DNA from: an uncultured Acidipila sp.
Lineage (GTDB): Bacteria > Acidobacteriota > Terriglobia > Terriglobales > Acidobacteriaceae
Assembly: GCA_937859835.1 (NCBI GenBank)
Contig: CALMAN010000048.1
Span: 1-58,533, forward strand
Reading direction: 5' to 3'
DNA: 58,533 bases
The position numbers and the translations under genes were made by a program. The notes below the pieces were generated by a model, which was given only the letters and a program-made list of their open reading frames with translations, was not told where the DNA came from and searched no databases. Positions 1 to 10,021 of the stretch are shown piece by piece. The number at the start of each line of letters is the position of its first letter. The first letter of the stretch is position 1.

Positions 1-835
1 GCCCAAAGGCGCGCACAAACAACGACCGAAGCGCGGCAGGCAGCAGGTCAAAAGGCGGAGCCGAGGGCATGGGCCGGATGCGCGGGGCGCCGGCGTAGGG
101 GCAGTCCCCTCCCGCGATCCGCTTTTCAAGGGGGGGCGCATCGCCGGCGCCGATCCAGGCTCCGTTGAACGGGTGCACGCCTTCCATGAGCAGAAGAAAC
201 AGCAGCACCGCGAGCGCGAAGTTGTCCTGCTCCGGCGTGCGATCGGTAACGGCCAGGTCGCGGCCCTGCAGTTCCGGGGCAAGGTATTCCGGCTTGGCGA
301 CGGTGCAGCGAAAGACGGTTGTGGGCGTGCGGACCTGCATGGAGTCGCAGTCGACGAGGGTGACCAGCGCCTGGTCCGACACAAAGAAGTTGCTTTCGTT
401 TACATCGCCGACCACGTAGCCGCGGCTGTGAATCGATTCCATGACGATGGCGATGTTTTCAGCGGCCTTGAGCAGGTAGGCCCAGGTAAAGTTGGGCGCC
501 TGCTGCCGCCGGTCCATGGGGTTGTACAGCTGGAAAAGCTCGCGATGCTTGGAGCGGTCGAGCAACGGCATCAGAAAGCCGACACACAGCTTCGCTTCGT
601 TGAACAGCATGCTCTCAGGCCAGCAGATGGACACGTGCCCGCGCCGCTGGGTAGGGTCTGCGGGCGGGTGGTCGACCATCGCCTTGAGCTTGTCGGTGCG
701 CGCAGCGGTGTGGGCGTGGTAAATCTTCGCGACCAGCGTCGTGCGCCCACGCACCGCATAGATGGCCGCCTCGCCACCCTTGCCAAGCTGCGGACCCAGC
801 AGGATCGATTTGCCGCGCTGGTCGATGAGGTTCAT
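1..835 (-). CDS. Serine/threonine protein kinase-like protein (TerY-P/YegI-type), C-terminus truncated by window edge
   Basis: Hand translation of the minus strand from ATG at 835: MNLIDQRGKSILLGPQLGKGGEAAIYAVRG...LVAKIY...GYVVGDVNESNFFVSDQALVTLVDCDSMQV...KPEYLAPELQG...DNFALAVLLFLLLMEGVHPFNG. Gly-rich loop, AxK, GDVNxxN catalytic loop and DCD (DFG-like) are visible. Open to position 1, so it has no stop in the window and is absent from the ORF track. Confidence 0.88.
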   Translation of the reverse strand, partial: MNLIDQRGKSILLGPQLGKGGEAAIYAVRGRTTLVAKIYHAHTAARTDKLKAMVDHPPADPTQRRGHVSICWPESMLFNEAKLCVGFLMPLLDRSKHRELFQLYNPMDRRQQAPNFTWAYLLKAAENIAIVMESIHSRGYVVGDVNESNFFVSDQALVTLVDCDSMQVRTPTTVFRCTVAKPEYLAPELQGRDLAVTDRTPEQDNFALAVLLFLLLMEGVHPFNGAWIGAGDAPPLEKRIAGGDCPYAGAPRIRPMPSAPPFDLLPAALRSLFVRAFG

Positions 836-1620
836 GCGACAAGGGCGCGGCGTACCGCGAGCACCAGTGTTTTGTCGTCGTCCGTGCGGTCGTTGACGCG
901 ATCGGAGGCAAGCAGCGCGACCAGCTCTTCCCCGTCGGCTTCCTGCTGGGCGACGTAGTCGAACAGCGGCGCAAAGAAGGGCGCGTGGGCCGTGTTCGTC
1001 GCCAGCTCGAGCGCCAGCGCCTGGAGGCCATCGGTCAACAGGGCCAGCCCGTCTACCGCCGCCGCAGGGCGAACCGTGAGCACTGCGTGCGCAGCCGGAT
1101 CAGGCGCGGTCAGAAAGGTCGTCTCGTTCACGTACTCTCCGGCCGCCGGGGGCGCAAGCACCTCCAGCGCGCCCGCCGGGGAGCGAAACACGATGGCGCC
1201 GTCGCCAAGCTGCAGGGCAGCCACATGGGTCTCGGTGGCAACGGTGAGCAGCAACGTCGAGGCAAAATCACGAAGCGTTGCTTCCCCGGTGGCCGCAGCC
1301 AGCTCTTCCAACGCGCGCCGCGCGTGCAGCATAGCGCCGCACAACAGGGCTTCCCACGCGTGGTCGTCGATGGGTCTCCCCGAGCGGAAACAGCCGGCCA
1401 GGAACTGGGTCGAAGCGCGTACCGCCTCGAGGGCGCCCTCCCCTGAACGCGCAGCCGAACCGGCTCCGTCCGCGACCGCGACGATCAGCGTTCCTTCCGC
1501 CGTCCCATCGTCAAGCAGAAGACCCTGGTGCGCATCCTGGCACAGAAGGCCGCGTGCCGTATGGCTCGTACCCACGACGGACGCACCCAGAACGCCCCAG
1601 GCTGCTGTGCGGATCTCCAT
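832..1620 (-). CDS. PP2C-family serine/threonine phosphatase
   Basis: 262 aa ORF: GLLCQDAHQG...LIVAVADGAGSAARSGEGA...; PP2C-like metal-binding motifs; stop overlaps the kinase start by 4 bp (translational coupling). Confidence 0.85.
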   Translation of the reverse strand: MEIRTAAWGVLGASVVGTSHTARGLLCQDAHQGLLLDDGTAEGTLIVAVADGAGSAARSGEGALEAVRASTQFLAGCFRSGRPIDDHAWEALLCGAMLHARRALEELAAATGEATLRDFASTLLLTVATETHVAALQLGDGAIVFRSPAGALEVLAPPAAGEYVNETTFLTAPDPAAHAVLTVRPAAAVDGLALLTDGLQALALELATNTAHAPFFAPLFDYVAQQEADGEELVALLASDRVNDRTDDDKTLVLAVRRALVA

Positions 1621-1623
1621 AGC

Positions 1624-2277
1624 TCAGGCGGGTGAGCCGAAGGTGACCGGGGCCAGCGGCGTTTGCTCGTCTGTTTTGCTCCGCGAGATGCCTTTTTGGC
1701 TTTGCGAGACCCAAAGAAACAGCTCCCGAAAGCTAAGCCCGTTCAGCTTAAGTGTGCGGTCCGTGATGGTCTTCAGCGCCGACATATCGGCATTGTTGAC
1801 GCCCACGGCGAAAAAGTTCAGCCCGCGCGCGGCGGTTTCGCGACGCACCAGCTCCGCCGCGCTGTGCCACTCGTCGGTGGGCGTGCCGTCGGTGATCAGA
1901 AAGACCCAGGGCTGGTAGTAGCTCAGGCCCGCCTCCTTGTATGCCTGCTTGCGCGCCTTTACCATTTGCACGCCCTGTGCCATGGCCTGCCCCATGGGCG
2001 TGCCGCCTTCGGGCACCAGCAGCGGCGCCTGGAAGGAACCGGCCGAAACCCAGTCCTGCACCGTCCGCACGGTTCCGCCAAAGGTGACGATCGCGACTTC
2101 CACGCGCCGCTTGGCTAAACCGTCCTCCTGAATGTCGGCCTGAAAAGCCCGCAAGCCGGCGTTCAGCTCCTCGATGGGAGCGCCTGCCATGGAGCCGGAC
2201 GTATCCAGCAGCATCACGCACGCGCAGCGGGGGTCGGGATTGATGGCGAACTCGGGATTCAGGGCCAGTGCTGTCAC
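1624..2277 (-). CDS. VWA-domain protein (TerY-like)
   Basis: CACVMLLDTSGSMAG MIDAS motif (DxSxS), ...FLITDGTPTDEWH. GTG start at 2277 preferred (GAGGTG-like RBS); the ORF track extends it to 2418, which would crowd the divergent gene. Confidence 0.85.
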   Translation of the reverse strand: MTALALNPEFAINPDPRCACVMLLDTSGSMAGAPIEELNAGLRAFQADIQEDGLAKRRVEVAIVTFGGTVRTVQDWVSAGSFQAPLLVPEGGTPMGQAMAQGVQMVKARKQAYKEAGLSYYQPWVFLITDGTPTDEWHSAAELVRRETAARGLNFFAVGVNNADMSALKTITDRTLKLNGLSFRELFLWVSQSQKGISRSKTDEQTPLAPVTFGSPA

Positions 2278-2423
2278 AGCGCACCTCGCGGTTTCTCCCT
2301 CGAGTCTATCGCGGAGTCTCCTGCGGGAAAGCGAGGGCAACGTTTCGCTGCTGCGCGGAACCGGGGTCGAAACAAGTTGCGCCTCAGGCGCATCCCCGCC
2401 CAGACCAGCGTTCTCCAATACAT

Positions 2424-3536
2424 ATGTCGTCCATGCCCGCAGTCGCCCCGGAACAGGATGCGCCTGCTCTCCCCGAAGGCAAGCTGTGGCGCCCCCGGCG
2501 CGTCCTGATTACCCCGGACGCGCTGGCCCTGCCCCACGGGCAGCGGATGCTCGACCGCGCCGCGTCGTACGGCGCCGAAGTTATCAAGCTCCCAAACAAC
2601 CGGCTTACCGGCTTTCGCGGCGAAACCGAAGGGCAAAGCTATGCGCTTGCGAAAACCACCTTCGCCATCGTGGTCGCGCCGCCGAGCCAGCGCAAGCTGC
2701 AGCCCATTCCCCCTTCGGCCGACTGGCAGTTCCACCTCGCCCAGGGCTGCCCGGCGCACTGCCAATACTGCTACCTGGCCGGCTCGCTTTCCGGCCCACC
2801 GGTGACGCGCGCCTACGCTAACCTGCCGGAGATCCTCGAAGCCCTGCGCCCCTACGCCGGGCAGGGCAGGGTTACCTCGCGTTCTCGCGAGCGCGCCAGC
2901 GAAGGCACGACCTTTGAAGCCTCCTGCTACACCGACCCGCTCGGCATCGAGCACCTGACCGGTGCGCTCGCGGCCTCCATCTGCTTCTTTGGTGAGTGGG
3001 AAGCACCCGTGCAGCTGCGCTGGACAACCAAGTTCGACGCCGTGGGCCCGCTACTCGCCCTGCCTCATCGCGGCCGCACGCGGGTGCGTTTCTCGATCAA
3101 CGCGGCGAGCGTGGCGCGCGGCTTTGAGGGTGGCACGGCGAGCGTTGCCCAGCGCATCAAGGCGCTCGGCCGCATGGCGCGCGCCGGCTACCCGGTCGGG
3201 CTTACCATCGCGCCCATCATGCCGGTTGAACACTGGCAGGAAGAGTACACGGCGCTGCTCGGCGCGGTCGCGGCGGCCGTCCGCGACGTTCCCGCTCTCG
3301 ATCTAACCGCCGAGCTGATTACCCATCGCTTTACGCCGGGATCGAAAGAAGTGCTGCTGGGCTGGTACCCGAAGACAAGCCTCGACATGCGCGAAGACAC
3401 GCGCGCCGAAAAGCGCACCAAGTTTGGCGGCTTCAAGTACGTCTACCCGAAAGACTCGATGACCGCGATGCGCTTCTTCTTTGAAGAGCGCATTGCCGAG
3501 CTGCTGCCCGCGGCGCGCATCCTCTACTGGACGTAG
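2424..3536 (+). CDS. Spore photoproduct lyase-family radical SAM protein
   Basis: FHLAQGCPAHCQYCYLAGSLSGPP (CX3CX2C cluster), FEASCYTDPLGIEHLTG, RWTTKFD, TRVRFSINA: SPL-family pattern. ATG at 2424 preferred over the longer ORF start at 2268. Confidence 0.85.
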   Translation: MSSMPAVAPEQDAPALPEGKLWRPRRVLITPDALALPHGQRMLDRAASYGAEVIKLPNNRLTGFRGETEGQSYALAKTTFAIVVAPPSQRKLQPIPPSADWQFHLAQGCPAHCQYCYLAGSLSGPPVTRAYANLPEILEALRPYAGQGRVTSRSRERASEGTTFEASCYTDPLGIEHLTGALAASICFFGEWEAPVQLRWTTKFDAVGPLLALPHRGRTRVRFSINAASVARGFEGGTASVAQRIKALGRMARAGYPVGLTIAPIMPVEHWQEEYTALLGAVAAAVRDVPALDLTAELITHRFTPGSKEVLLGWYPKTSLDMREDTRAEKRTKFGGFKYVYPKDSMTAMRFFFEERIAELLPAARILYWT

Positions 3537-3677
3537 GCCGTTCAGCTCAGCTTATAGGATCCTTGATCGGTAGCGCGGGGATCGGAGAACGAGACGCCGT
3601 GTACAGAAGTGCACGGTACCCTCTGGTCAAACCGTCGGCTCCTTGCGCTTCGCCCTTTGTTCGCCTACGATGACGCT

Positions 3678-4541
3678 GTGAGTGTGCTTGCTTTCCCTAC
3701 CCGGCCCGCTGGCTGCAGCGCGACGGCCTTGCACCGCGACCTGAACGCACGCGCCGCGCTTTACGCCCGGAAGCACGCGCTGCTGCACGAGCTTTCCACG
3801 GGTCGTGCTCCCAGCGTTCTGTTCGGCGAGGATGCGGATGGCCGCCACGGCAACTTTCACCCGGCAAGCTACCGTGCCATCCTCAGCGACCCGTGCTGGC
3901 GGGCGCGTTTGCGCAAGGCGCATACGGCTGGCCGCCGCGCCCTGCCCCGGGCCGACTGGCGCTGGCGCGAACTGGACTGCGCGGCGAGCTCGGACGCGCT
4001 GCTGATGAATATCTTTTGCCATCCTCAGCTATACCGCACGGGTGCGGTCGCGGCGCTGCTGGGCGTCAGCCCGGCGAGCCGGCCGCAGTTCGGCGTGCAC
4101 CCCCGGCTCCCGCGCGAGCGCGGCCTGATCGACACAACCGAGATGGACATGGAACTTGACGGCCTCCTGGTAGAAGCCAAGCTGACCGAAGGAGATTTCC
4201 AAACAGCGCGGCCCACGCTGCTGGCCCGCTTTACCGGCTGGGCCGATGTGTTTGAGCCTGACGCGCTTCCGCGCACGCCGTCGGGCGCCTACGCGAGCTA
4301 CCAGCTGCTCCGCGGCGTGCTGGCTGCCGCGGCGAGCCCGGACAGATCGTTCTGCGTGTTGCTCGACGCGCGACGCGTGGACCTGATAACACAGTGGCAC
4401 GCGGTCATGGCTGCTGTGCGCAGCGTCGCTTTTCGCACCCGGCTCAAGCTGCTTACCTGGCAGGAGCTTGCCCGCGCCCTGCCCGGCGGCCTCAGGCAGT
4501 ACCTTGCCGAAAAGTACGGGATCGTGGCTGCCTCTTCGTAG
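3678..4541 (+). CDS. PD-(D/E)XK nuclease-like protein (PGN_0703-like)
   Basis: MDMELDGLLVEAKLTEGDFQTARPTLLARFTGWADVFE fits a D...ExK nuclease core; family name from recall. GTG start at 3678 or ATG at 3609. Confidence 0.55.
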   Translation: MSVLAFPTRPAGCSATALHRDLNARAALYARKHALLHELSTGRAPSVLFGEDADGRHGNFHPASYRAILSDPCWRARLRKAHTAGRRALPRADWRWRELDCAASSDALLMNIFCHPQLYRTGAVAALLGVSPASRPQFGVHPRLPRERGLIDTTEMDMELDGLLVEAKLTEGDFQTARPTLLARFTGWADVFEPDALPRTPSGAYASYQLLRGVLAAAASPDRSFCVLLDARRVDLITQWHAVMAAVRSVAFRTRLKLLTWQELARALPGGLRQYLAEKYGIVAASS

Positions 4542-4639
4542 CGAGGAGATCGTGACCGCCGACGCAACCAGGCCGGGCGAAGCGCCTGCATCCAACCGAT
4601 CAGTTGCTGAGCAAATCCCGGGGGGAGCGCGCACGCACC

Positions 4640-5638
4640 ATGGAATACATCCGCCTTGGCAAGACCGGCCTTCAGGTTTCCCGCATCTGCCTGGGCTGCA
4701 TGAGTTACGGAGAGCCCGCCAAGGGCCCCTTGACCCCGGGCAGCCATGCCTGGACCCTGAACGACGCCGACTCGCAACCCTTTCTGAAGCAGGCCCTCGA
4801 CCTCGGCATCAACTTCTTCGATACAGCCAACGTGTACTCGCGCGGCGCGAGCGAGGAAGTACTGGGCAGATTTCTCAAAAGCAACACCCGGCGCGAGAAC
4901 ACGGTGATCGCGACCAAGGTTCACAGCCCCATGCGAGATGAGCCCAATGGCAGCGGCCTGTCCCGCAAGGCTATCTTTAACGAGATCGACGCCAGCCTGC
5001 GCCGGCTACAAACCGACTATGTGGACCTGTACCAAACGCACCGGTGGGATGATGAAACGCCGGTCGAGGAAACCCTCGAAGCCCTGCACGACGTTGTCAA
5101 GGCCGGAAAGGCCCGCTACATCGGCGCGTCCAGCATGTACTCGTGGCAGTTTGCAAAGGCGCTCTACCTCGCGGACCTGCACGGTTGGACGCGCTTTGTT
5201 TCCATGCAGAACCACTACAACCTGATCTATCGCGAAGAAGAGCGCGAGATGATGGGCCTATGCGAGGCCGAGGGCATCGGCGTGCTGCCCTGGAGCCCGC
5301 TGGCGCGCGGACGGCTGGCACGGCCGTCGGACGCGGAAAGCACCAAGCGGCTCGAAAGCGACCAGTTTGGCAAGACCATGTACGCCGGCACCGAAGCAGC
5401 GGACCGGAAAGTGATCGATGCCGTGGCCGCGCTCGCGCAAAAGCGCCGCATGCCGCAGGCCACCCTTGCGCTGGCCTGGATGCTTTCAAAGCCCTACGTC
5501 ACCAGCCCGATCGTCGGCGCGACCAAGCCGCACCACCTCGCCGATGCGGCGGCTGCGCTCGAGGTGAAACTCTCGCCCGAGGAGATCGGGGAGCTGGAAT
5601 CAAGCTACATCCCGCACCCGGTTCTCGGTTTTAAGTGA
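4640..5638 (+). CDS. Aldo/keto reductase
   Basis: MEYIRLGKTGLQVSRICLGCMSYGE...NFFDTANVYSRGASEEVLGRFL...DYVDLYQTHRWD; AKR family hallmarks. Confidence 0.93.
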   Translation: MEYIRLGKTGLQVSRICLGCMSYGEPAKGPLTPGSHAWTLNDADSQPFLKQALDLGINFFDTANVYSRGASEEVLGRFLKSNTRRENTVIATKVHSPMRDEPNGSGLSRKAIFNEIDASLRRLQTDYVDLYQTHRWDDETPVEETLEALHDVVKAGKARYIGASSMYSWQFAKALYLADLHGWTRFVSMQNHYNLIYREEEREMMGLCEAEGIGVLPWSPLARGRLARPSDAESTKRLESDQFGKTMYAGTEAADRKVIDAVAALAQKRRMPQATLALAWMLSKPYVTSPIVGATKPHHLADAAAALEVKLSPEEIGELESSYIPHPVLGFK

Positions 5639-5735: not shown

Positions 5736-6491
5736 ATGCAAAGTCGCATTCTTGGTAGCACCATGCCCGTGCTCGAGTTCCGTCTCGAGCCAAACGACAC
5801 CGTCATCTCGGAGGCCGGGGAGCTGAGCTGGATGTCGAGCTCCATCCAGCTCACCACGCACACCCAGTTTTCCGGGGGCGGCGGCTTTTTTGGCGCGATC
5901 AAGCGTGTTGCCGGCGGCGGCAGCCTGTTTATGACCGAGTACCGCGCGGTGGGCGCGCCCGGCGAGATAGCCTTTGCGGCCAAGATGCCCGGGCACATCG
6001 TTCCCGTTGAGGTTTCGCCAGGGCAGGAGTTCCTGGTACATCGTCACGGCTTCCTTTGTGCCACCCCGGCGGTCAACATCGGTGTCGGCTTTCAGCAGTC
6101 CCTCGGGGCAGGCATCTTTGGCGGCGACGGCTTTTTGCTGCAGCGCATCACCGGCACAGGCGTGGCGTGGCTTGAACTTTCCGGTGAGCTGGTGGTGCGC
6201 GACCTGCGTCCGGGCGAAACCTTGCGCGTGCACCCAGGCCACGTTGGCGCCTTTCAGGCTTCGGTCAACTTCGGCATTACCCGCATCCAGGGCATCCGCA
6301 ACATGATCTTCGGCGGCGACGGCATCTTTCTTGCCGCGCTTACCGGCCCGGGACGGGTGTGGCTGCAAACCTTGCCCCTGCCGCAACTGGCGCACAAGCT
6401 GCAACAGTACATGGGCGGCGAAGCTACGCGGGGAGCCACCACCGGGGTGGTCGGCGGCATTGTGGGCTCAATTCTTGAAGGCATGCGCTGA
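5736..6491 (+). CDS. AIM24 / TIGR00266 family protein
   Basis: MQSRILGSTMPVLEFRLEPNDTVISEAGELSWMSSSIQ...GGGGFFGAIKRVAGGGSLFMTEY; preceded by AAGGAG RBS. Confidence 0.88.
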   Translation: MQSRILGSTMPVLEFRLEPNDTVISEAGELSWMSSSIQLTTHTQFSGGGGFFGAIKRVAGGGSLFMTEYRAVGAPGEIAFAAKMPGHIVPVEVSPGQEFLVHRHGFLCATPAVNIGVGFQQSLGAGIFGGDGFLLQRITGTGVAWLELSGELVVRDLRPGETLRVHPGHVGAFQASVNFGITRIQGIRNMIFGGDGIFLAALTGPGRVWLQTLPLPQLAHKLQQYMGGEATRGATTGVVGGIVGSILEGMR

Positions 6492-6574: not shown

Positions 6575-9500
6575 TTAGAACTGGTACTTAAGCGCGAACT
6601 GAAACAGCCGCGGGTTGTAGTTAGGGGACGTGGAACTAATGGTTCCAATGTTGTTCGGCGACACCGTGTAGGTGTTGGTTGGCAGCGACACAGGCCCGTT
6701 GCCGACCGCGCCATCCCCGGCATAGGCCACCGTGAAGGTGGTGGGCGCAACCTGAAGCGTCGCATTCGGGTTGCTGAAGTTGGTTGTGTTGACGACGTTG
6801 AAGCACTCGGCGCGGAACTCAAGCGTTGACTCGCGGTACACGGGAAAGATCTTGAAGAGCGAGAAATCCACGTCGCGGAAGTGTGGTCCGTACAGCAGAT
6901 TTCTTTCCTCATTGCCCACTGTGCCCGAGGCTTCCGGAGCGAACGCCGCAGGGTTGAAGTACTCCGAGATGTTCTGAGTGCCCACCTTGGGATTTCCCAC
7001 GACATTTGGTCTTCCCGACGTAGCGCCACTGTTTGTGTTGACGATGCTGTTGGAGTTGGTCACGGTAAACGGCTCGCCGCTCTGCCACTGCAGAATGGTG
7101 TTCGCCTGCCAGCCCTTGCCAACCTGCGCTGCGATGCCGTGCAGGTTGCTGCCGAAGGGCAGCTGGTAGTCAGCGCTAAACACACCCCGGTTCCGGATGT
7201 CTACGTCGCTGTTGCCGTACTCAAGCGTGCTCAGCTGAGACGGGATCGCGCCGTAACCGTCGTTGATCTCGTTGCTCAAGCCGAGCACGTTATCCAACCC
7301 ATGCGCGAGCGTGTAGTTTGCATTGATCGTCAAGCCTGCCCGGGTGCGGCGAGTAAAGACGACCTGCAGCGCGTTGTAATTGGAAGAGCCCAGGCTGTTA
7401 TACCCACCAATGCCACTTACATTGGGTAGCTGGTTATAAAAGGGCCGGAGCCGGTTAAACGCGGTTGCAGGAGTAACACCCTCCTCAATAGCCAACGCGT
7501 CAAGGGCGGTGTTGGAGATGGGAGCCGGCGCGTTCTGGTCGTTATAGATCTGCGCCAGGTACCGGCCAAGCATACCAACGTAGGTCACCTGCAGAACGTT
7601 TCCGCCGAACTCCTTTTCCATGGTTAAGTTGAACTGCTCCAGGTAGGAGGTCCGGAAGTTTGGATCAACCACATCCGCGATCGAGCCGGAAGGATTGGTA
7701 GCGCTGGTTGGGGTTGGCAGCGGCAGCCCGAGCTGAAACTGCAGCGTGCCGTTTCCAGGACCAGCACCCGGCACTGCCGGGGTTGGGCAAGAGCCATTCT
7801 GGCAGAAGAAGCTTGAAACAAAGGGCTGATTCTTGAGCGAAGCATTGGACGTGTAGTTTTCAGGCACGTACGAGATGCCGAAGCCGCCGCGTAGCACCAG
7901 ACCGGGCTTTGCTGTCAGGGCAAACCCGATGCGGGGCGCGACGTTGGTCCAGGTCGTGTGCAAACCCGCATAGTCGTTCACGCCATTGACGCCGGCAACT
8001 TCGATAGTCGCCGTGGCCGGGTTGAAGTTTGAGATCGCGTTATGCGCCTCGGTAAACGGCGTAAACACGTCATAGCGAACACCGAGGTTCAGTGTCAGGT
8101 TCGACGCCGCGTGCCAGTCGTCCTGCACGAACCCGCTTGGCTCCCAGGTACGGTAATGCGGCGGTTGGAGGCTGTTGGAGCGCGACACGGTGTTGTAGTC
8201 GCCCTGCAGCAGGGCGGCCAGGCCTGTCGGATCCGCGGCGGTGGCGCCGGGCGCAGTCAAAGGATTAAAGCCCCAAACGCCGATCCCCTGGTTGTTCTGG
8301 AAGTTCAACGCCTGCCGGCGGATCAGCGCCGCGCCCAGCTTGATATTGTGCGCGCCCCGATTGATGGTGACGATTCCGTTTTCCTGAAAGGTATTGTCAA
8401 TATCCTGGATCGGGATATAACTCCCATCGCCAAGGTCGGCCAGACCAGCGGGTTGCGCCGGGGACAAACCGGAAGTCAGGGTATCGAGGTTTACATTGGG
8501 TTGGCCAAAAGCCGTGTTCACCGCGGTGCCGTAGTTCAGCGGGAAGGACTGGTTGTTGATGCGCGTGTAGCCAAACCCCAACTGAAGAAGCAGATTCGAG
8601 CTGAAGGTGTGGATGTAGTTGATCTGCGCGTTCTGGGCGTCATCCTTTGCGGCGCCGTAGAAGTTATAGTCCGCGCCGCCGGGAGCAACGTTCACCCCGG
8701 CTACCGAGGTAATGGGCAGCCCGCCGGGAAAGTTGGACGGCACGCGGTTATAGGTGTAGCGGCCGTACAACAAATCCTTCTGATCGATCTGCCAGTCCAC
8801 GCGACCGTCGGCCGTATCCGAGTTGCGAATGACCACGGGCGAACTTACGTAAGCGCCGGAGCCGGCTGCTGTGGAAGGAGCGTTCGGCGCCGGGTACAGC
8901 ATCGCGTACTCGAGCCCGACCGGGTCAACCGGTCCGCCGTCGGCAAGCGACGCCGCATTGCCGTTGTGCAAGGCCGTGTACTGCGCCAGCGTGGGCACCT
9001 GGAACAAGGCGGGGTTGCTGCCTTGTATCTGACGCAGACCCTCGTAGTCGCCAAAGAAGAAGACCTTGTCGCGGACGATGGGACCGCCGATCGAGCCGCC
9101 GAACTGGTTCTGGCGAAGCTTTGGCTTGGGGTTCTTGGCGCCGAACTGGAAGGGGTACGCATCCAGCACATCGTTGCGGAAGAACTCGTACGCCGAGCCG
9201 TGCAGCGCGTTGGACCCGGACTTCGTGATGATGTTCACGACGCCGCCGGCCGTACGCCCGACTTCCGCCGTGTAATCGTTGGACTGGATGTTGATCTCGC
9301 GGATCGCTTCAATCGAAGGACGAACGCCGATGGTGCCGATGATGCGCTCGTTGTTGTCGAGGCCGTCGATCATTTCATCGTTGATGACGTCTGACTGGCC
9401 GTTGACCGAAAGTGAAGAAGTCTGCCGGCGATCATCCGGACGGGCTCCGCTGGTCAGGCCGTTGGGCGGGCCGGGGTTCGCGCCCGGCGTGATCTGCGCG

Positions 9501-10021
9501 AGATTGATGTAGTTGCGGCCGTTGAGCGGCAGGTCCTGCACGGCCTGCTCCGTCACGGTCGACGACAAAGCGGAGGTGTCGGTCTGCAGAGCCGGCGTTT
9601 GCGCGGTCACCTGCACGGTTTGCGCTTCCGAACCGACCTCAAGCTTCGCATCTTCACGGGCACGGTCCCCGGCCGCAAGCGCGACCGATGGCACAACGTA
9701 GCTCTTGAACCCGGCCTCCTGCACTTCGACCGAATAGGTGCCCGGCCCGAGTTGCGTAAAGGTGTAGTCGCCGGCGCCCGTGGTTTGCGCTGTTTTGGTT
9801 TCCTTGGTTTCCAGGTTCGTCAGCGTTACTTTCGCATTCGGAAGAATCGCTCCCGAGTTGTCCGTAACGGTTCCGGTGATGTCGCCGGTGGTGCTTTGTG
9901 CTGCCGCATAGGGAGTTGCCGGGAGCAGCAAGCACCCGGTCATCATTGCGACTCCCGCTGCGAAGCGGATGCGCCGTTCTGCTGCCTCTGAAAAGATTGC
10001 AATCTTGCGTGTGTGGGTCAT
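6575..10021 (-). CDS. TonB-dependent receptor, Oar-like, with carboxypeptidase-regulatory-like N-terminal domain
   Basis: 1148 aa; signal peptide; STTGDITGTVTDNSGAILPNAKVTLTNLETKETKTAQT; plug SLSVNGQSDVINDEMIDGLDNNERIIGTIGVRPSIEAIREINIQSNDYTAEVGRTAGGVVNIITKSGSNALHGSAYEFFRND; terminal aromatic FALKYQF. Confidence 0.95.
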   Translation of the reverse strand: MTHTRKIAIFSEAAERRIRFAAGVAMMTGCLLLPATPYAAAQSTTGDITGTVTDNSGAILPNAKVTLTNLETKETKTAQTTGAGDYTFTQLGPGTYSVEVQEAGFKSYVVPSVALAAGDRAREDAKLEVGSEAQTVQVTAQTPALQTDTSALSSTVTEQAVQDLPLNGRNYINLAQITPGANPGPPNGLTSGARPDDRRQTSSLSVNGQSDVINDEMIDGLDNNERIIGTIGVRPSIEAIREINIQSNDYTAEVGRTAGGVVNIITKSGSNALHGSAYEFFRNDVLDAYPFQFGAKNPKPKLRQNQFGGSIGGPIVRDKVFFFGDYEGLRQIQGSNPALFQVPTLAQYTALHNGNAASLADGGPVDPVGLEYAMLYPAPNAPSTAAGSGAYVSSPVVIRNSDTADGRVDWQIDQKDLLYGRYTYNRVPSNFPGGLPITSVAGVNVAPGGADYNFYGAAKDDAQNAQINYIHTFSSNLLLQLGFGYTRINNQSFPLNYGTAVNTAFGQPNVNLDTLTSGLSPAQPAGLADLGDGSYIPIQDIDNTFQENGIVTINRGAHNIKLGAALIRRQALNFQNNQGIGVWGFNPLTAPGATAADPTGLAALLQGDYNTVSRSNSLQPPHYRTWEPSGFVQDDWHAASNLTLNLGVRYDVFTPFTEAHNAISNFNPATATIEVAGVNGVNDYAGLHTTWTNVAPRIGFALTAKPGLVLRGGFGISYVPENYTSNASLKNQPFVSSFFCQNGSCPTPAVPGAGPGNGTLQFQLGLPLPTPTSATNPSGSIADVVDPNFRTSYLEQFNLTMEKEFGGNVLQVTYVGMLGRYLAQIYNDQNAPAPISNTALDALAIEEGVTPATAFNRLRPFYNQLPNVSGIGGYNSLGSSNYNALQVVFTRRTRAGLTINANYTLAHGLDNVLGLSNEINDGYGAIPSQLSTLEYGNSDVDIRNRGVFSADYQLPFGSNLHGIAAQVGKGWQANTILQWQSGEPFTVTNSNSIVNTNSGATSGRPNVVGNPKVGTQNISEYFNPAAFAPEASGTVGNEERNLLYGPHFRDVDFSLFKIFPVYRESTLEFRAECFNVVNTTNFSNPNATLQVAPTTFTVAYAGDGAVGNGPVSLPTNTYTVSPNNIGTISSTSPNYNPRLFQFALKYQF

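Follow-up and report, generated by a model that had tools for sequence, protein, structure and literature searches.

TerY-P triads, described by Anantharaman et al. 2012 and summarised in PMC11090510, consist of a TerY-like VWA protein, a PP2C phosphatase and a Ser/Thr kinase that carries a zinc ribbon at its C-terminus, and they are proposed to be phosphorylation switches (PMC11090510). A variant with a C-terminal OB-fold kinase protects against phage (Gao et al. 2020, cited via PMC7699616 and PMC11090510). In the ARG/ARPP-centred anti-ADP-ribosylation systems, a rapidly evolving REase is found in an ADP-ribose-centred neighbourhood (PMC9503650). Here, we analyse five adjacent genes at one end of contig CALMAN010000048.1 from an uncultured Acidipila sp., where a TerY-P-like triad is located next to a spore photoproduct lyase (SPL)-type radical SAM enzyme and a PD-(D/E)XK-type nuclease, Table 1. 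The window is the whole contig (1-58533) of a draft assembly with 193 contigs and 3.1 Mb, and this assembly has no DNA left of position 1. The five genes are very probably three functionally separate, individually known units, and their adjacency would reflect an assembly join or a rearrangement particular to this lineage rather than joint work.

A preliminary description of this DNA recognised the triad as TerY-P-like, the radical SAM enzyme as SPL-like and the last protein as PD-(D/E)XK-like. An ORF check confirmed all five reading frames at their coordinates, and the family guesses agree with the Pfam matches, the E-values of which we judge far beyond chance for all five genes. The description also proposed that the divergent SPL-nuclease pair could be the effector arm of a five-gene module controlled by the triad. 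This proposal is not supported: the plus-strand genes and the triad are not co-located in any relative examined, which is the outcome that the description itself named as a refutation.

The same-genus comparison rests on one genome, G001 (apparently Acidipila sp. EB88). It carries orthologues of all five genes on a single contig (C5) of 4,254,206 bp, with the nuclease at C5:262965, the VWA gene of the triad at C5:1150054 and the SPL gene at C5:2769196, i.e. the three units are separated by about 0.9 to 2.5 Mb. In a DNA alignment, positions 2-2262 of the window correspond to the triad locus of G001, 2478-3536 to its SPL locus and everything from 3737 onward to its nuclease locus, and no DNA is shared with G001 across the block boundaries. 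From 3609 to approximately 11391 the window follows the gene order of the G001 nuclease locus. As the three units are this far apart in the closest relative, a new defence module is very unlikely.

The wider survey gives the same picture. Of the 300 family genomes surveyed, about ten have an SPL of this kind and nine have the triad VWA; three genomes have both (the window's own, G001 and G302), and in G302 the triad (C1:241106) and the SPL gene (C2:40114) are on different contigs. In 86 SPL loci, of which Acidobacteria, Alphaproteobacteria and Actinobacteria contribute most, neither the triad nor the nuclease is found near the SPL gene, and the triad loci of other genomes contain neither SPL nor nuclease. 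Among all fetched loci, two or more of the units occur together only in those covering the window itself. Given that the units are not co-located in the relatives examined, the adjacency is either specific to this lineage or was created artificially, by joins in the last 3.7 kb before the end of a draft contig.

If the five genes formed a defence or repair module under phosphorylation control, the triad would sense damage or infection and switch the SPL enzyme and the nuclease on or off. The tight divergent layout in the window fits such a module, as does the known proximity of TerY-P triads to DNA-processing genes elsewhere (PMC11090510; PMC4978471). However, the orthologues lie megabases apart in the same genus and no second example exists at any locus examined. 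We therefore reject this hypothesis with high confidence and regard it as extremely improbable. Hardly more probable is that a rearrangement in this lineage only has brought the SPL gene, possibly along with the nuclease, under TerY-P triad control and so created a new phosphorylation-linked response to UV or phage.

An assembly chimera, where pieces from different loci of this genome were joined in the last 3.7 kb of the contig, is one way in which the three-unit explanation could hold and does not compete with it. In comparison with G001, the two breakpoints are within this distance of the contig end in a 193-contig draft. The GC content is even over all genes (63-69%), which speaks against a join, although a join within one genome is compatible with even GC. 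On balance, we consider a chimera rather unlikely.

Three points weigh against three separate units. First, the genes are closely spaced, with 146 bp between the divergent VWA and SPL genes and 72 bp between SPL and nuclease, and such spacing together with the divergent orientation of the first two units can mean co-regulation. Second, triad and SPL occur together in three of the 300 family genomes versus about 0.3 expected (P = 0.002). Two of these three cases belong to one genus, and counted by genus P is 0.049. Third, the genus offered only one further genome for comparison. In a narrower explanation, the triad and the SPL gene would be expressed in this species from a common divergent promoter region and would have been co-regulated since a recent rearrangement, with the nuclease standing apart. 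The short divergent spacer and the weak excess of genomes with both units favour it, but the pairing is conserved nowhere, the two being far apart in G001 and on different contigs in G302, and we find it most doubtful. An overlap between genomes without adjacency says little about a joint mechanism, and we do not take it as functional evidence.

Table 1. Genes at the left end of the window, with position, strand and supporting match.
Feature	Position	Strand	Match and remarks
Kinase, N-terminal 278 aa, cut by the contig end	2..835	-	Pfam Pkinase, 5e-8
PP2C-type phosphatase of the triad	832..1620	-	Pfam PP2C_2, 3.7e-48
TerY-like VWA protein, GTG start	1624..2277	-	Pfam VWA, 8.6e-14
Spore photoproduct lyase-type radical SAM enzyme	2424..3536	+	Pfam SPL PF20903, 1.6e-86
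PD-(D/E)XK-type nuclease, REase-ARP family	3609..4541	+	Pfam PF22558, 6.2e-39
Aldo/keto reductase (AKR)	4604..5638	+	PF00248, 6.7e-78; 87% identical in G001, downstream of the nuclease
AIM24-family protein	5736..6491	+	PF01987, 3.3e-66; 91% identical in G001

The three triad genes form a stable cassette. The full set of VWA, PP2C and kinase is present in 12 of the 13 loci of relatives with a close VWA, the thirteenth having VWA and PP2C only, and the PP2C gene adjoins the VWA gene in all 13; beyond the triad genes these loci have essentially nothing in common. In the window the three genes are likewise adjacent in one operon, as in the described TerY-P triads, and the PP2C gene shares 4 bp with the start of the kinase gene. 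The McrBC/CoCoNuT or helicase genes described for those triads are not among the neighbouring genes. A sequence search of the PDB with the PP2C protein found no relative. The MIDAS of the VWA protein is intact (DTSGS...T...D; D72-T-S-G-S, T140 and D177 in alignment numbering), and a longer TTG start (2418) is not conserved.

The serine/threonine-kinase-like fragment retains the catalytic Asp and Asn (GDVNESN) and the metal-binding Asp (DCD), and is cut by the contig end before the region of the zinc-ribbon-like motif. The full-length orthologue in G001 (682 aa, L042:6210-8258) runs on to a CxxNxxHxY...CPWC zinc-ribbon-like motif followed by a transmembrane-like stretch, and the kinase of another relative has WD40 repeats further along. 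The kinase frame was read at nine of the relatives' loci, and every one has a CPWC motif after the kinase domain. This agrees with the published TerY-P definition, the zinc-ribbon feature being seen in relatives. Past this motif the triad kinases vary, with a WD40 propeller, a stretch that resembles a transmembrane segment or one that resembles TerB (identified by eye in L192; kinase genes in L042, L044, L186-L193). The composition of VWA, PP2C and kinase is also that of the TerY-P anti-phage system of Gao et al., whereas the window VWA reaches only 12 bits with the PADLOC model of TerY, and an anti-phage role would be assigned by analogy. No Pfam match to an OB-fold was obtained in the G001 kinase orthologue, and the window kinase lacks its C-terminus.

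The SPL gene lies within an ORF at 2268-3536, with a likely ATG start at about 2424. Numbered along this ORF, the catalytic set is complete, with the C161/C165/C168 cluster (CX3CX2C), Y167, Y169 and C220. The catalytic part can be aligned throughout with the spore photoproduct lyase of Geobacillus thermodenitrificans (4fhc, 6.7e-61), and cluster, tyrosines and hydrogen-donor cysteine are shared. This cysteine is C220, the equivalent of Cys140 in the G. thermodenitrificans enzyme. The hallmarks of spore photoproduct lyase, i.e. CX3CX2C, a catalytic cysteine (Cys140/141) and a tyrosine pair, are thus all present. Among 86 related sequences, 85 keep the cluster and the tyrosines and 80 keep C220. 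Because the catalytic set is complete, the enzyme probably reverses a UV thymine lesion; the lesion repaired by spore photoproduct lyase is 5-thyminyl-5,6-dihydrothymine. It differs from the characterised lyase in its TIGR04070 match, which at 306 bits is under the equivalog cut-off of 400 bits, and in its host, an acidobacterium, from a phylum that is not known to form endospores.

SPL-type enzymes with a complete set, hydrogen-donor cysteine included, are common among bacteria that are not known as endospore formers (at least 551 loci). Their hosts often come from lichen, leaf, soil or dry habitats, and include Methylobacterium, Microvirga, Micromonospora, Actinoplanes, Arthrobacter and some Acidobacteriaceae (loci L075-L154). 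A limited literature search found nothing on the lesion that such enzymes repair in non-sporulating, perhaps dried, cells.

The nuclease ORF has 310 aa and its conserved part starts at about residue 36. PF22558 matches it over nearly the full length with the PD-(D/E)XK residues intact, which places it in the REase-ARP family, and the residues of the motif T-E-x-D180...E189-x-K191...Q198 are invariant across 18 orthologues. A single-sequence AlphaFold model (pLDDT 38) is too poor to read, and the PD-(D/E)XK fold is predicted from profile and motif only. Since the motif is intact, the protein probably cuts DNA. Sequence searches of the PDB and of viral contigs found no relative of it.

Judging by the name, the REase described for the ARG/ARPP-centred systems (PMC9503650) is probably REase-ARP. 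A literature search on the name 'REase-ARP' found nothing. Here the neighbours differ from those systems: the nuclease is surrounded by SPL, AKR and AIM24 genes, and no ADP-ribosylglycohydrolase or ARPP gene is beside it. A search of this genome for ARPP-1 gave no match, a result without a positive control, as the control genomes gave none either.

The nuclease is present in 17 of 60 relatives and its neighbours differ nearly every time. In these 17 loci, with flanks of up to about 9 kb, we found no SPL, no VWA and no widely shared neighbour. A lone REase-ARP gene with changing neighbours suggests that the gene moves frequently or that its surroundings are often rearranged (L021-L037). Within the genus there is a conserved backbone, as the AKR and AIM24 genes follow the nuclease both in the window and in G001. 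Further along, a minus-strand ORF of 1148 aa at 6575-10021 resembles, by reading, a TonB-dependent outer-membrane protein; a paralogue with 29% identity is found near the triad in G001 (L042:1861-5526).

The roles that we infer for the three units are separate ones. The triad would most likely be a stand-alone stress or anti-phage switch. Its kinase and PP2C probably act on common targets, whose phosphorylation state they would set between them, the VWA protein may act as a metal-dependent scaffold, and the zinc ribbon together with the variable C-terminal regions of the kinase could be the sensing or tethering end. The SPL-type enzyme would work as a separate unit for the repair of UV lesions and the nuclease as a lone DNA-cutting unit.

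What looked like a plausible defence island close to the end of a contig turns out, on comparison within the genus, to be three unlinked loci, and the lead is cleared. Had it been real, the module would have linked protein phosphorylation to the direct reversal of photolesions, and support for it is confined to this single contig.
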